64,000 nt of DNA from Polaribacter haliotis (GTDB lineage Bacteria; Bacteroidota; Bacteroidia; Flavobacteriales; Flavobacteriaceae). Both the position numbers and the translations under genes were made by a program. Position 1 is the stretch's first letter. Each line of letters opens with the position of its first letter. The stretch spans positions 1,746,001 through 1,810,000 of the forward strand of contig NZ_CP061813.1 in assembly GCF_014784055.1 (NCBI RefSeq). The letters run 5' to 3'. Below, piece by piece: positions 53,887-64,000 of this stretch. A model generated the notes under the pieces. That model saw only the letters and a program-made list of their open reading frames with translations. It was not told the DNA's origin and did no database searches.

Positions 53887-53925
53887 AATAATAAATATGT
53901 ATAAAAAAAGAAAAAACACAAAAAA

Positions 53926-53961
53926 TGTGTTCGAGCACACTAAATAATGTTATCGAGCACA
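53926..53961. promoter_or_regulatory. Pair of LacI-type operators upstream of the LacI-family gene
   Basis: TGTGTTCGAGCACA (53926-53939, palindromic at 12 of 14 positions) and TGTTATCGAGCACA (53948-53961) both have a central TCGA. They share TCGAGCACACT exactly, and their centres are 22 bases apart, two helical turns. They lie in the divergent promoter region, so the adjacent LacI-family protein could control itself and the operon. Confidence 0.7.
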
Positions 53962-53989
53962 CTTTTTATTTAATTACTAGTTTTTTATA

Positions 53990-53997
53990 TATATTTG
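53990..53997 (+). promoter_or_regulatory. -7 promoter box of the first LacI-family gene
   Basis: TATATTTG is an exact match ending 5 nt before ATG 54003. It excludes the in-frame ATG at 53925 as the start and implies a leaderless mRNA. Confidence 0.6.
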
Positions 53998-54002
53998 CGA
54001 TT

Positions 54003-55040
54003 ATGACCAAAAAACATACAATAAAAGATATTGCAGAATTGGCAGGTGTATCTAAGGGAACTGTAGATAGAGTTATACATAAAAGAGGTAAAGTTTCTAC
54101 GAAAGCCTTAGAAAAAGTAAATGCTGTTTTAAATGAAATAGACTACAAACCTAATTTATTAGCTAGAAGTTTAAAAAATACTAAAGAATATCATGTTTGT
54201 GTTATTCTACCAGATTATAAGGAGGATTCTTTTTGGTTGCCTTGTTTTGAGGGAATACAAGAAGCAATTAACGAATTTAGTGCTTTTGGTATTTTTATAG
54301 AACCTTTCTTTTTTAATACAAATAGTGTACAAACTTTTATAGACATAAATAAAAAAGTTTTAGAATTATCGCCAAATGCAGTACTTTTAACGCCTTTATT
54401 TTATAAAGAAACTATTACAATTGTAAATAATTATGCTGCATCTAATATTATTGTTAGCAAGTTTAATAATCAATTAGAAACAGAGAATACTAAAAATTTC
54501 GTTGGGCAAGATTTATTTAAAAGTGGCAGAATTGCTGCGAGTTTAATGAAGATTATAGTTCCTAAAAACTCTAATATTGCTATTATTCATATAGATGAAG
54601 ATTTTAAGAATGCTATACACATGCAAGAAAAAGAGAAAGGATTTAGAGATTACTTTTTTGATTTAGCAAACTCCAATTATCAAATTACAACTTATAGTTC
54701 TAAAAATGCTGATATTGAAAACAAACTAACCTACATTTTAAATACTTCTAAAAATTTAGCAGGAATTTTTGTTACGACTTCAAAGACTTATAAAGTAGCT
54801 GAATTTACAAAAGGAAAAGATATTAAAATTATTGGGTATGATTTATTAGACGAGAACATTAAATACTTAAAAAACAATCATATTAATTTTTTAATTCATC
54901 AAAATCCCAAAAAACAGGTATTTTTAGGATTAACTTATTTAGTAGAATATTTACTTTTTAACAAAGAAATACCAGCTAAAAGTTTATTGCCAATTGACAT
55001 TGTAAATGCAGAAAATTTAGAAACTTATCTAGAAAATTAG
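54003..55040 (+). CDS. LacI-family transcription regulator next to the amino-sugar operon
   Basis: From ATG 54003 this 345-aa protein starts with a LacI-type helix-turn-helix (HTIKDIAELAGVSKGTVDRVIHKRGKVS) and hinge helix (KPNLLARSLK). A periplasmic-binding-protein-like ligand domain follows (YHVCVILPDYKEDSFWLPCFEGIQEAI). It has no signal peptide. The upstream in-frame ATG (53925) lies before the -7 box and in the operator region. It diverges from the amino-sugar operon, which it probably represses until a sugar effector binds. The true ligand is not known. Confidence 0.88.
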   Translation: MTKKHTIKDIAELAGVSKGTVDRVIHKRGKVSTKALEKVNAVLNEIDYKPNLLARSLKNTKEYHVCVILPDYKEDSFWLPCFEGIQEAINEFSAFGIFIEPFFFNTNSVQTFIDINKKVLELSPNAVLLTPLFYKETITIVNNYAASNIIVSKFNNQLETENTKNFVGQDLFKSGRIAASLMKIIVPKNSNIAIIHIDEDFKNAIHMQEKEKGFRDYFFDLANSNYQITTYSSKNADIENKLTYILNTSKNLAGIFVTTSKTYKVAEFTKGKDIKIIGYDLLDENIKYLKNNHINFLIHQNPKKQVFLGLTYLVEYLLFNKEIPAKSLLPIDIVNAENLETYLEN

Positions 55041-59070: not shown

Positions 59071-59865
59071 TTAATCTTCGTTTACTGGCTTACCAATAGT
59101 TGCTAGAATTCCACCATCAACATAAACAACTTGTCCATTTACAAAATTACTTGCAGCAGAACTTAAAAAGATGGCTGCTCCTTGTAAATCATCTGGATCT
59201 CCCCATTTTCCTGCAGGAGTTCTTCCCACAATAAAATCGTTAAAAGGATGTCCATCAATTCTAATTGGTGCTGTTTGGCTTGTAGCAAAATAACCTGGTC
59301 CAATTCCGTTTGTTTGAATGTTGAATTTAGCCCATTCTGTAGCCATATTTTGAGTCAGCATTTTTAAACCACCTTTTGCAGCTGCATAAGCACCCACAGA
59401 ATTTCTACCCAATTCGCTCATCATGGAACAAATATTAATTATTTTTCCGTTTTTTCTTTCAATCATTCCTTTTACAACATGTTTAGAAACAATAAATGGA
59501 GCTACTAAATCTACGTCAATCACTTGTTTGAAATCTGCAACTTCCATTTCTACTAAAGGCGTCCTTTTAATGATTCCTGCATTGTTCACTAAAATATCAA
59601 TCGCGCCAACTTCAGCTTCAATTTTTACGATATTTTCCTTTACAGCAACTTCATCAGTAACATTAAAAAGATATCCATAAGCATCTATTCCTGCAGCTTT
59701 ATATTCTTTTACAGCTTTGTCTAATTTTTCTTGAGAAGAATTTCCATTCACCACAATTTTTGCTCCTGCATTTCCAATTCCTTTAGCCATTGCCATTCCA
59801 AGACCATGAGTTCCTCCCGTAATTAAAGCTACTTTACCTGATAAATCGAATAAGTTAATTGACAT
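59071..59865 (-). CDS. kduD: 2-dehydro-3-deoxy-D-gluconate 5-dehydrogenase (SDR family)
   Basis: This 264-aa short-chain dehydrogenase reduces 2,5-diketo-3-deoxygluconate to 2-keto-3-deoxygluconate (KDG) with NAD(P)H in the cytoplasm. It has a cofactor motif TGGTHGLG (16-23), NNAG (94-97), and catalytic Ser147, Tyr160 and Lys164 (YAAAK). The C-terminus (VNGQVVYVDGG) is the usual SDR end. It lies 18 bases downstream of kduI. Relatives annotated as gluconate 5-dehydrogenases are similar, but the kduI neighbour decides for KduD. Confidence 0.92.
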   Translation of the reverse strand: MSINLFDLSGKVALITGGTHGLGMAMAKGIGNAGAKIVVNGNSSQEKLDKAVKEYKAAGIDAYGYLFNVTDEVAVKENIVKIEAEVGAIDILVNNAGIIKRTPLVEMEVADFKQVIDVDLVAPFIVSKHVVKGMIERKNGKIINICSMMSELGRNSVGAYAAAKGGLKMLTQNMATEWAKFNIQTNGIGPGYFATSQTAPIRIDGHPFNDFIVGRTPAGKWGDPDDLQGAAIFLSSAASNFVNGQVVYVDGGILATIGKPVNED

Positions 59866-59883: not shown

Positions 59884-60726
59884 TTATCTTAATTCGTTAA
59901 TTTTACAGTGATCCATATCTCCATAATCTAAATTTTCACCAGCCATTCCCCAAATAAAAGAATAACTACTTGTTCCAGAACCTGAATGAATTGACCAAGG
60001 AGGAGAAATTACTGCTTGGTTATTTCCCATCCAAATATGTCTAGTTTCTGTTGGTTCTCCCATAAAATGACAAACTGCTTGGTCTTCAGCAACTTCAAAA
60101 TAGAAATAGATTTCCATTCTTCTATCATGTACATGAGCTGGCATTGTGTTCCAAGAACTTCCTGGTTTTATAGTTGTCATACCCATTTGTAATTGACAAA
60201 CATCTACAACACTGTTTACAATATACTTTCTTAATGTTCTTGCATTTGCGGTTTCTGGAGAACCTAATTCTACAGTTTCAACATCATTTCTTCCAATTTT
60301 TTTAGTCGGAAAAGCTTTGTGAGCTGGAGTCGAATTCAAATAAAACATTGCTGGATTTTCGGCAGATTCGCTTGAAAACTTTACATTTTTGTTTCCTTGA
60401 CCAACATATAATGCTTCTTTATGTTCTAAAGCATATTCAGTTCCATCTACAGTAACTTTTCCTGCTTGCCCAACATTTATAATTCCTAATTCTCTTCTAT
60501 CTAAAAAGTTTTCAGCTTTTAAAGCATCTATAGTTTCTAATTTTAAAGATGAATTAGTTGGTACTGCACTTCCAGTAATAAAACGATCGTAATGAGAATA
60601 TGTAAAATTTATTACATTTTTCTCCATTAAATTATCAATTAAAAATTCTTCTCTAATTCTTGCTGTATCATATGATTTTACATCTTGTGGAGATGCTGCA
60701 TATCTTGTGCTATAGTTTGTTTTCAT
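59884..60726 (-). CDS. kduI: 5-keto-4-deoxyuronate isomerase
   Basis: This 280-aa cupin-fold zinc enzyme isomerises 4-deoxy-L-threo-5-hexulose uronate (from unsaturated uronates) to 2,5-diketo-3-deoxygluconate. The zinc ligands are His198, His200 and Glu205 in MPAHVHDRRMEIYFYFE and His247 in PPWSIHSG, the same spacing as in E. coli KduI. Length is normal. It is the first gene of the kduI-kduD-DUF4861 operon. A TACTTTTG box lies 46 bases upstream, and behind it is a perfect 40-bp palindrome shared with the divergent LacI-family gene. Confidence 0.95.
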   Translation of the reverse strand: MKTNYSTRYAASPQDVKSYDTARIREEFLIDNLMEKNVINFTYSHYDRFITGSAVPTNSSLKLETIDALKAENFLDRRELGIINVGQAGKVTVDGTEYALEHKEALYVGQGNKNVKFSSESAENPAMFYLNSTPAHKAFPTKKIGRNDVETVELGSPETANARTLRKYIVNSVVDVCQLQMGMTTIKPGSSWNTMPAHVHDRRMEIYFYFEVAEDQAVCHFMGEPTETRHIWMGNNQAVISPPWSIHSGSGTSSYSFIWGMAGENLDYGDMDHCKINELR

Positions 60727-60772: not shown

Positions 60773-60780
60773 CAAAAGTA
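60773..60780 (-). promoter_or_regulatory. -7 promoter box of the kduI operon
   Basis: On the - strand this reads TACTTTTG, a full TAnnTTTG match, 46 nt before the kduI ATG. The 40-bp palindrome begins 5 bases further upstream and covers the -33 region. Confidence 0.6.
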
Positions 60781-60784
60781 AGAA

Positions 60785-60824
60785 AAATATATTAAAATAC
60801 AATCGATTGTATTTTAATATATTT
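60785..60824. promoter_or_regulatory. Perfect 40-bp palindromic operator between kduI and the LacI-family gene
   Basis: All 20 base pairs of symmetry hold around ATCGAT (60802-60807); the inner 18 bases are AATACAATCGATTGTATT. It is flanked by the -7 box of kduI (60773-60780) and that of the LacI-family gene (60824-60831). A central CG step is typical of LacI-family operators, so the neighbouring regulator is the likely binder. Confidence 0.88.
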
Positions 60825-60831
60825 ATATTTG
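60824..60831 (+). promoter_or_regulatory. -7 promoter box of the second LacI-family gene
   Basis: TATATTTG overlaps the last base of the 40-bp palindrome, so bound repressor would block it. It is 77 nt upstream of ATG 60909. Confidence 0.55.
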
Positions 60832-60908
60832 CTGAAGAGTTAAATGAATAATATGTTTAATTTCACATGATAATAATAAAGACGAATCTTTAGTGCATAT
60901 TTTTAAAA

Positions 60909-61937
60909 ATGGATAATAACGAGGTAACAATACACGACATTGCTAATATTTTGGAAATAGATAGTTCCACAGTTTCCAGAGCTTTAAATAATAGCCCGCG
61001 AGTTGCCAAAAAAACAAAAGATAAAATTCTTGCCAAAGCCAATGAATTGGGATATCAAAGAAACCATTTGGCTTCTAATTTACGTAAAAGTAAAACCTTT
61101 ACTATTGGTGTAATTGTGCCAAGAATATCTCGTCATTTTTTCTCTTCTGCAATTGCCGGAATTGAAGAAACTGCTTTTAAAGCAGGCTATAATGTAATTA
61201 TTTGTCAGTCTTTAGAAAGTTTAGAAAGAGAGCAAAGTATTATAGATACTTTATTAGCAAATAGAGTTGATGGTGTTTTAGTTTCTATTTCTATGGAGAC
61301 TATTAATTACAATCATTTTAAAGGATTACAACAAAGAAATATTCCGTTTGTTTTTTTTGATAGACATTGTAATATTTCTGAAAATAGTAAAGTTGTTATC
61401 GACGATTTTGAAGCTGCTTTTACAGCTGTAGAACATTTAATTGAACAAAAAAGCACAGAAATTGCTCATTTTGCTGGGCCACAAAATTTAGAAATTTATA
61501 AAAATAGGTTTAAAGGTTATAAAGCTGCTTTAGAAAAATACAATATTCCTTTTAGAGAAGAATTGGTTATTACATCAACATTAATGGAAAAAGATGGTTC
61601 AGAAAATGTAAAAAAATTGCTGGCTTTACCTTATAAAGTAGATGGCATTTTTTGTGCGAATGATGTTGTTGCTATTGGTACAATTCAGCATCTAAAAAAA
61701 ATGAATATAAAAATTCCAGAAGAAATTGCTATTGTTGGTTTTAGTAACGAATCTATTTCTTCGGTTATAGAACCTGCATTAACAACCATAAATCAATCTG
61801 GTACCGAAATAGGAAATGTTGCTACTAAATTACTGTTAGATAAAATTTCTAACAAAACTAAAAAAGGCATCCACGAAACTATTATTGTAAAAACTAACTT
61901 AATAGAAAGAACCTCTTCTTTAAGAACTAAAAAATAA
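60909..61937 (+). CDS. LacI-family transcription regulator of the kdu locus
   Basis: This 342-aa protein has an N-terminal LacI helix-turn-helix (VTIHDIANILEIDSSTVSRALNNSPRVA), hinge helix (RNHLASNLRKSK), and a ligand domain with typical motifs (FTIGVIVPRISRHFFSSAIAGIEE, VDGIFCANDVVAIGTIQHLKK, SVIEPALTTINQSGTEIG). It lies divergently from kduI with a 40-bp palindrome between them. I infer that it represses both units, released by a uronate intermediate such as KDG. The propeller sensor gene follows 52 bases downstream. Confidence 0.93.
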   Translation: MDNNEVTIHDIANILEIDSSTVSRALNNSPRVAKKTKDKILAKANELGYQRNHLASNLRKSKTFTIGVIVPRISRHFFSSAIAGIEETAFKAGYNVIICQSLESLEREQSIIDTLLANRVDGVLVSISMETINYNHFKGLQQRNIPFVFFDRHCNISENSKVVIDDFEAAFTAVEHLIEQKSTEIAHFAGPQNLEIYKNRFKGYKAALEKYNIPFREELVITSTLMEKDGSENVKKLLALPYKVDGIFCANDVVAIGTIQHLKKMNIKIPEEIAIVGFSNESISSVIEPALTTINQSGTEIGNVATKLLLDKISNKTKKGIHETIIVKTNLIERTSSLRTKK

Positions 61938-61989: not shown

Positions 61990-64000
61990 ATGAAATTTAA
62001 AAGTAGTTTACTTTCACTTTCTCTAATTTTAATAGTCGTTTTCGCATCTTTTGCGCAAGATTTTTCTACCAATAATCAATTATTAAAATTTAAACAATTT
62101 TCTTTATCTGAAGGTTTATCTCAAAGTTCGGTTTTAACTATTCTACAAGATTCAAAAGGGTTTTTATGGTTTGGAACCAGAGATGGATTAAACAAATACG
62201 ATGGGCATAATTTTAAAACTTACAGATACGATTATAAAGATGAAACTAGTATTAGTAGTAGTTTTATTAGAACTTTATTAGAAGATAATAATGGAACTAT
62301 TTGGATTGGAACCAACAATGGTTTAAATAAATATTTACCCACAGAAGATATTTTTGTTCGTTACAAACATAGCAATAATAAAAACAGTTTAATTAGTAAC
62401 GAAATTTGGAGTTCTGCACTTGCAAAAGACAATTATTTGTGGATTGGGACTAGTGCTGGATTGGAGAAATTCAACACTAAAACAGGAGAAATAACGCATG
62501 TTTTAAATGAAGATAAAAATCCGCTAAACACATCAGAAAATGAAATAAGATCGTTGTATGTTACTTCAGATGACAAACTATGGATTTGTAAGCAAAATGA
62601 CATCATCGTTTTTAACAGTAAAGAAAATAAGTTCGAGAATTTCGAATATCCTAAAAGTGGTGTAAAAGAACAAAACAGAAATTATTCTCCTGTAATTTAT
62701 CAAGATAAAGACAAAAATATCTGGTTGGGTTACAATGATGGTTTGGCAATTTTTGATGCAGATAAAAATGAATTTCAGCATTTTGTATTAGATTCTAAAA
62801 ACAGTACTCAAATTTCTACAGAAGTTAGAACCATTCATCAAGATTTTTATAATAATATCTGGATTGGAACTTACAATGGTTTGTATATTTTAAACAAAGA
62901 AAAAACAACTTTAAAACATTATACACATGATGAAAATAATGTGAATAGTTTAAGTCAGAATTCCATTTATAAGATTATTGGAGACACAAAAGGCGATGTT
63001 TGGATTGGTACGTATGCTGGAGGTGTAAATTATTACGACAGAAGTTTCGATTTGTTTAAACACTATTTAGCAGGTACAAACAATTTCAAATTAAATTATA
63101 AAGTAATTAGCTCGATTATTGAAGATCCAAAAGGCAATTTATGGATTGGTACAGAAGGTGGAGGAATTAATTATTTAGATAAGAAAACAGGGAAATTCAC
63201 CTATTACACGCATAATAAAAACAACCCAAATAGTATAAGTACTAATAATGTAAAAGCTATTTTAAGAACTAAAAATGGTAACTTTTGGATTGGAACGCAT
63301 GATGGAGGTTTAAATTTTTTAAATCCGAATAAAAAACCTTTTATCTTTAAAAAATACAAAAGTAGTACGAACTCAAATAGTTTGAGTAATGATAGAATCA
63401 TATCCTTATTCGAAGATGTCTATGGAAATATATGGATTGGAACTTCTGGAGGAGGATTAAATGTTTTGGATGTAAAAAATAATTCTTTTTTAAGAATTGA
63501 AAACTCCGAACTTACTTTTGGAGAAATAATTTTTAATATTTCTGAAACTTCAAATGATAAAATTCTTTTAGTTTCTGGAGATAATGGTTTGGCAAAAATT
63601 AATATCGATTCAAAAAAAATAACGCCAATAAATTATAAGTTAGAAAGCGAAAAAAACAATAACATTTCCATAACATTATCTGCTTATGAAGACAATTCTA
63701 AAAATATTTGGATTGGCACAGAAGGAAATAGTCTTTATTACTACAATACAACTACTAAAAAAAGCACGAAATATGGCATTGCAGAAGGTTTGCCAAATGA
63801 AGTTATTTATAGCATTTTACCTGACGATTATAATAATTTATGGTTTAGCACCAACAAAGGTTTAAGTCGTTTTAATTTAGAATCTCGTCAATTTAAAAAT
63901 TTTGGTGTTTCAGATGGTTTAGTAGAAAATGAATTCAATTATGGTTCTAAATTAAAGTTAAAAAACAAAGAATTAATGTTTGGTAGCGCAAACGGAATTG
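61990..64000 (+). CDS. Hybrid two-component system-like propeller sensor (3' end beyond window)
   Basis: The frame opens at ATG 61990 and stays open for at least 670 codons to the window edge, so it is partial. It has a signal peptide (SLLSLSLILIVVFASFAQ) and repeated propeller motifs (LQDSKGFLWFGTRDGLNKYDG, LLEDNNGTIWIGTNNGLNKY), typical of the periplasmic two-bladed sensor domain of Bacteroidota hybrid regulators. Those proteins detect an oligosaccharide and carry kinase, receiver and AraC domains further on; these would lie outside the window and are not seen. It probably senses the polysaccharide degraded by this locus. Confidence 0.88.
   Translation, partial: MKFKSSLLSLSLILIVVFASFAQDFSTNNQLLKFKQFSLSEGLSQSSVLTILQDSKGFLWFGTRDGLNKYDGHNFKTYRYDYKDETSISSSFIRTLLEDNNGTIWIGTNNGLNKYLPTEDIFVRYKHSNNKNSLISNEIWSSALAKDNYLWIGTSAGLEKFNTKTGEITHVLNEDKNPLNTSENEIRSLYVTSDDKLWICKQNDIIVFNSKENKFENFEYPKSGVKEQNRNYSPVIYQDKDKNIWLGYNDGLAIFDADKNEFQHFVLDSKNSTQISTEVRTIHQDFYNNIWIGTYNGLYILNKEKTTLKHYTHDENNVNSLSQNSIYKIIGDTKGDVWIGTYAGGVNYYDRSFDLFKHYLAGTNNFKLNYKVISSIIEDPKGNLWIGTEGGGINYLDKKTGKFTYYTHNKNNPNSISTNNVKAILRTKNGNFWIGTHDGGLNFLNPNKKPFIFKKYKSSTNSNSLSNDRIISLFEDVYGNIWIGTSGGGLNVLDVKNNSFLRIENSELTFGEIIFNISETSNDKILLVSGDNGLAKINIDSKKITPINYKLESEKNNNISITLSAYEDNSKNIWIGTEGNSLYYYNTTTKKSTKYGIAEGLPNEVIYSILPDDYNNLWFSTNKGLSRFNLESRQFKNFGVSDGLVENEFNYGSKLKLKNKELMFGSANGI

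Follow-up and report, generated by a model that had tools for sequence, protein, structure and literature searches.

LacI-family operators form even palindromes of 16-22 nt with CG at the centre, lying mostly 30-140 bp upstream, according to the consulted part of a published survey (PMC4052901). Inverted repeats are also the substrate of a mutational process: in E. coli, template switching at quasipalindromes turns imperfect inverted repeats into more perfect ones (PMC7202029, consulted sections), and quasipalindrome-associated template-switch mutation is also treated by van Noort et al. (2003), as cited in PMC6060812. Template switching has been proposed, in the portion of PMC8794818 consulted, to create and maintain RNA hairpins. 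Both the kind of operator and the mutational process are already known. Repeated homogenisation of operator flanks was not found in the literature searched, which consisted mostly of abstracts, with most subscription journals outside it.

We describe a locus at which the two subjects appear to meet. Like the surveyed operators (PMC4052901, same consulted part), it has an even palindrome, a CG centre and an adjoining regulator, but its symmetry reaches 40 bp, beyond 16-22 nt. The process that we propose shares with quasipalindrome mutation in E. coli (PMC7202029, in the sections named) that the arms of inverted repeats grow more perfect, in blocks, whereas here this is read from natural sequences and at an operator without a spacer. 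With the template switching of RNA hairpins (PMC8794818, in the portion named) it would share compensatory multi-base changes arising from single replication events, whereas the site here is an operator in DNA that precedes both predicted transcription starts, with no RNA stem. We propose, with a probability of roughly 0.64, that the outer symmetry of this palindrome stems from quasipalindrome correction seeded by the operator, in which one flank is copied over the other during replication.

Results

A 40-bp palindrome between divergent kduI and regulator genes

The window, by which we mean the whole stretch of 64,000 nucleotides of Polaribacter haliotis DNA that was analysed, carries the following features around the intergenic gap between kduI and the regulator gene (lacI), which spans 182 bp and is 84% A+T. 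Promoter boxes were predicted by the -7 consensus TAnnTTTG given in the consulted part of PMC9723704.

57808..58983, minus strand: DUF4861 / BT_3233-family polysaccharide utilization protein (profile match)
59071..59865, minus strand: kduD-like short-chain dehydrogenase (top NCBIfam match gluconate 5-dehydrogenase)
59884..60726, minus strand: kduI, 5-dehydro-4-deoxy-D-glucuronate isomerase (NCBIfam PRK00924, 442.8 bits against a cut-off of 250)
60773..60780, minus strand: predicted kduI -7 box TACTTTTG (sequence; TAnnTTTG consensus, consulted part of PMC9723704)
60785..60824, no strand: perfect palindrome of 40 bp with arms of 20 (sequence)
60785..60794, no strand: outer arm on the kduI side (relatives differ in its letters but retain the symmetry)
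60795..60814, no strand: predicted LacI-family operator, inner 20 bp AAATACAATCGATTGTATTT (invariance in relatives)
60800..60802, minus strand: possible kduI -33 TTG, within the operator (sequence)
60815..60824, no strand: outer arm on the regulator side, mirroring the one on the kduI side (relatives' alignment)
60824..60831, plus strand: predicted -7 box of the regulator gene TATATTTG (sequence)
60909..61937, plus strand: LacI-family transcriptional regulator (Pfam LacI and Peripla_BP_3 over cut-off)

The dehydrogenase scores under the cut-offs of the KduD models of NCBIfam, and the regulator matches none of the NCBIfam equivalogs at its cut-off. Downstream of the regulator, a gene at 61990-63999 (plus strand) runs off the window and encodes a long protein with PorZ, under its cut-off, as top NCBIfam match; we take it to be possibly a hybrid two-component regulator. 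A related gene comes after the regulator in several relatives.

The earlier note on this DNA had claimed a perfect 40-bp palindrome at 60785-60824, placed exactly between two opposite -7 boxes. The palindrome is indeed exact, with its axis at the step 60804/60805 and 20 matched positions on each side, and both TAnnTTTG boxes are present at 60780-60773 (minus strand) and 60824-60831 (plus strand). The centring is not exact, however: the centre is displaced by 2.5 bp from the point midway between the boxes' inner edges, with four bases (60781-60784) separating the palindrome from the kduI box and its last base, 60824, shared with the lacI-side box. This is the longest perfect palindrome of the window, the runners-up having arms of only 8. 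AT-rich promoter DNA round a symmetric operator might merely look symmetric, as the 84% A+T of the region and a background match of about 0.37 per position would favour. A 20-bp arm is nevertheless far beyond that expectation, with a probability of 1.5e-9 per centre and 2.7e-7 for the whole gap under a model of intergenic composition.

The inner 20 bp resemble an ordinary LacI-family operator

No difference in the inner 20 bp separates the 10 close relatives, a set that counts the window and whose regulators are about 78-100% identical. These 20 bp form an even palindrome centred on C60804 G60805, 78 bp from the start of kduI and 104 bp from that of the regulator. Within the genus, 36 of 166 genomes have kduI matches and 14 have the exact 16-bp core. 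A kduI match of at least 80% identity is found in 15 genomes, namely the 14 core carriers and G224, and the 14 are exactly those whose kduI of at least 80% identity is unbroken. The kduI of G224 (88% over residues 104-279) is split in two frames (L279:3536-4304), and the 7 kb taken at this locus contain no LacI match and no core site. In the window's own genome there is no second copy of the 18-bp site at 1 or 2 mismatches; at 3 mismatches there are 12 matches, versus 3 with the reversed pattern.

Core sites were collected from the genus genomes, by scanning named genomes for the pattern and by searching the family, where the core was present in at least 34 of 397 genomes. This sample gave at least 150 distinct core sites, all picked by the exact 16-bp core, which fixes positions 1-8. 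Of the 150 listed, 148 were analysed and two without 45-bp flanks were dropped. Within 700 bp, 58 of the 148 listed sites have both kduI and a LacI-type gene, 8 kduI only, 9 a LacI-type gene only and 73 neither, a class that includes sites near locus ends, with neighbours outside the fetched stretch. The start of a LacI-type gene thus lies within 700 bp of 67 of the 148. The recognition helix of the LacI-type proteins beside the core is near-invariant: in 66 regulators adjoining it, conservation is 89-98% at each of residues 19-26, which read SSTVSRAL in the window. Of 20 kduI loci in the genus to which L129 (record Winogradskyella marina) belongs, 4 have a linked LacI gene; the site occurs at all four, and at none of the 16 loci without linked LacI within the upstream stretch of up to 450 bp that was examined. 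The CAATCGATTG pattern was too unspecific for use in this genus.

These observations fit the inner 20 bp being an ordinary LacI-family operator over both divergent promoters. The TTG at 60802-60800 is 19 bp upstream of the kduI -7 box, and we assume that the -33 TTG element and its spacing apply to the kduI promoter. At the regulator promoter, the sole TTG within the operator precedes the -7 box by 14 bp, not 19. The joint repression of regulator and kdu operon that the earlier note had predicted gains support from this placement and from the recurrence of the core beside LacI-type genes; judging by position, the operator would bind the regulator and repress both together.

Additional core copies were seen in some relatives. 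Second copies at L061:11600 and L069:11577 (arms 14 and 12) precede relatives of the window's other LacI-type gene (53925-55040) by 52 and 58 bp; ahead of that gene in the window itself, nothing matches the inner 20 bp within 3 mismatches. In some relatives only, the second LacI-type regulator may therefore be controlled by the first. Genome G081 has two extra core sites off the kdu locus (L065:7008 and L067:7008, arm 9 each), one of them separated by 229 bp from a gene related to that at 61990. A variant of the site, TATTTGTGCAATC-GATTACACAAATA, lies close to the start of a kduI of 74% identity at L235:1474.

Outer arms vary in sequence while their symmetry is kept

Across the close clade (n=10, window included; tree support within it is weak), the letters at positions 11-20 differ between genomes, yet the two arms of a genome agree with each other. 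The arm is exactly 20 in seven of the ten (window, L061, L063, L068, L069, L071, L074) and 19 in L073. Four changes are present in both arms, each in a single genome: 12T in L063, 12G in L071, 15G in L068 and 17A in the window. The outer arm is broken in L062, by four adjacent differences at positions 12-15 with G at 12 and at 15 on the kduI side alone, and in L072, where the lacI-side outer arm is mostly missing; both retain the gene layout intact. An alignment of relatives had been proposed in the earlier note as a check on the outer arms: the inner 20 bp proved invariant and the outer symmetry kept, whereas the outer letters were not conserved.

This pattern bears on the suggestion of a longer or double-dimer operator, with a protein reading all 40 bp. 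That 7 of the 10 close relatives have arms of exactly 20 bp agrees with it, but positions 12 and 15-17 vary among regulators that are 78-100% identical, arms are shorter at most of the listed linked sites (8 to 31 over the listed sites), and described LacI-family motifs measure 16-22 nt in the consulted part of PMC4052901. We regard a longer site as very improbable, and put it aside because the outer letters vary and the inner 20 bp do not.

Pairing kept while letters vary, as in those 7 of 10 relatives, is also what a selected DNA cruciform or hairpin would produce: the arms must pair and compensatory changes keep them pairing, for example for supercoiling sensing between divergent promoters. 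The site does sit between divergent promoters, and one strand of 60775-60834 is predicted to fold into a hairpin with an 18-bp stem (-13.1 kcal/mol, z -7.6). Against this stand the outer arms broken in 2 of 10 close relatives in spite of their intact gene layout. A hairpin in RNA was discarded, as the palindrome is upstream of both predicted starts.

Symmetry exceeds an arm-swap control and ends abruptly

To the listed sites we applied an arm-swap control, which joins the left arm of one genome to the right arm of another and thereby preserves column composition and any selected letters per column. Arms of at least 16 occur at 18 of the 75 listed kdu/lacI-linked sites, versus 0.85 expected (1.07 in permutations), a count reached in 0 of 5000 permutations. 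In the close clade the count is 8 of 10 versus 2.51 expected (3 of 5000 permutations), outside it 10 of 65 listed sites versus 0.76 (0 of 5000), and outside it after dereplication 9 of 48 listed sites versus 0.49 (0 of 5000). The excess is strongest at positions 12-16. The arms of a site resemble each other above the same arm elsewhere, as quasipalindrome correction would have it. Chance in AT-rich DNA, which the earlier note had kept as an alternative for the outer symmetry, is refuted for the group of sites by this control, in which column composition is kept and the observed count never reached; it could apply to single genomes only, and overall we give it almost no credence.

Arm lengths at the listed linked sites span 8 to 31, with arms of 8-11 at 38 of the 75. 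The two longest, which belong to L179 (Flammeovirga sp. EKP202; arm 31) and L216 (arm 30), have unrelated letters. Past the first mismatch, the match rate of the 18 long arms is 0.344, versus 0.372 in the swapped background, so the tracts end sharply. The outer symmetry thus exceeds the control, its letters covary, and its tracts have abrupt and variable ends. For a selected cruciform, one would expect the outer pairing to be conserved wherever the system occurs, and it is not: arms of 8-11 are common among the linked sites, tract length ranges from 8 to 31, and symmetry is at background right after the first mismatch. We therefore consider such a function unlikely. What stands of the hairpin or cruciform suggested earlier is intrastrand pairing, which best explains the symmetry; in our view it reflects a mutational process more than a selected function.

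A possible direction of copying in Flammeovirga

In one other lineage, the outer part of one arm resembles a copy of the other. kduI is present in 7 of 9 genomes of the genus of L179; ACAATCGATTGT sites lie upstream in five of the seven, and the other two have none in the stretch examined. The main divergent site has an arm of 31 in L252 (the L179 genome) and of 12 in L253-L256, and each of the five genomes has in addition one or two arm-7 sites near kduI. In L253-L255 the flanks differ, with TTTGGAA(T/A)T on the kduI side and TTT(G/C)AT(A/C)TT on the lacI side. The sequence TTTGGAATT is found on the kduI side only in L253-L255 and on both sides in L252, which on the lacI side has the next conserved block at the same distance as L253. 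From this comparison, the reading that best suits the outer part of the lacI-side arm of L252 is that it was copied from the kduI side. A plain one-step copy would leave two features unaccounted for: AAGGGTG, nearer the core of L252, is unlike both arms of its relatives, and L252, one base short of L253 on the kduI side, is there in the register of the lacI side.

L252/L179 also has an insertion of about 130 bp relative to L253-L255, about 65-70 bp past the palindrome centre on the lacI side. Its inverted ends are like AGTACTAAG / CTTAGTACT, and it is perhaps a small mobile element.

Discussion

Under the copying that we favour, the adjacent LacI-family protein would shut off the kduI operon and its own gene through the inner 20 bp, the bound repressor lying over the kduI -33 region and over the bases immediately before the regulator -7 box, while the outer 10 bp on each side would not be read as sequence. 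The operator, a selected perfect inverted repeat, would act as a seed at which the replicating strand may fold back, copy its own other arm and then return (quasipalindrome correction by template switching). One flank would be overwritten, as a by-product, with the reverse complement of the other, and the copied tract would halt where a selected promoter box would suffer, here at position 20. We infer the replication mechanism, the boundary role of the promoter box and the origin of the window's own arms in this way from the comparison of sequences.

Some observations weigh against copying. The window's clade was probably symmetric in its ancestor already, and because of this no directional copy is visible there. 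Arms that stay perfect in 7 of 10 relatives despite divergence are expected too under selection for pairing, and the two broken relatives would fit simple loss as well.

Extra symmetry round a repressor site is usually read as a longer binding site. At this locus it points to a mutational footprint instead, with letters free to change provided that both arms change. If this is right, operators would be natural hot spots for arm-to-arm copying, with consequences for the inference of motif length and for the reading of covariation, and the locus would offer a concrete system in which to ask whether selection or mutation maintains the symmetry of half-sites. A broader, speculative possibility, which we hold to be rather doubtful, is that palindromic operators in general seed their own symmetry, template switching homogenising half-sites together with their flanks. 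Paired half-sites would then evolve in concert and might carry promoter sequence across the axis, and there would be a mutational reason for the strong symmetry of repressor sites.

The effect is not uniform over operators, since control operators are rarely extended: at the genus's other LacI-type operators (12 loci, 21 sites), 12 sites have an arm of 6 and two, similar in sequence, an arm of at least 12. Such operators perhaps rarely extend because their perfect core is shorter. Arms of at least 16 are also seen at 4 of the 73 listed sites without a kduI or LacI start within 700 bp (L109:7086, arm 23; L201:1508, arm 21; L171:2004, arm 18; L106:5544, arm 17). In the fetched loci as a whole (1,416,338 bases, counting overlaps), an arm of 16 or more is reached by 3 of the 565 distinct palindromes whose arm is at least 6. 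These three look like bidirectional terminators, and three further background palindromes, of arm 15, look like operators.
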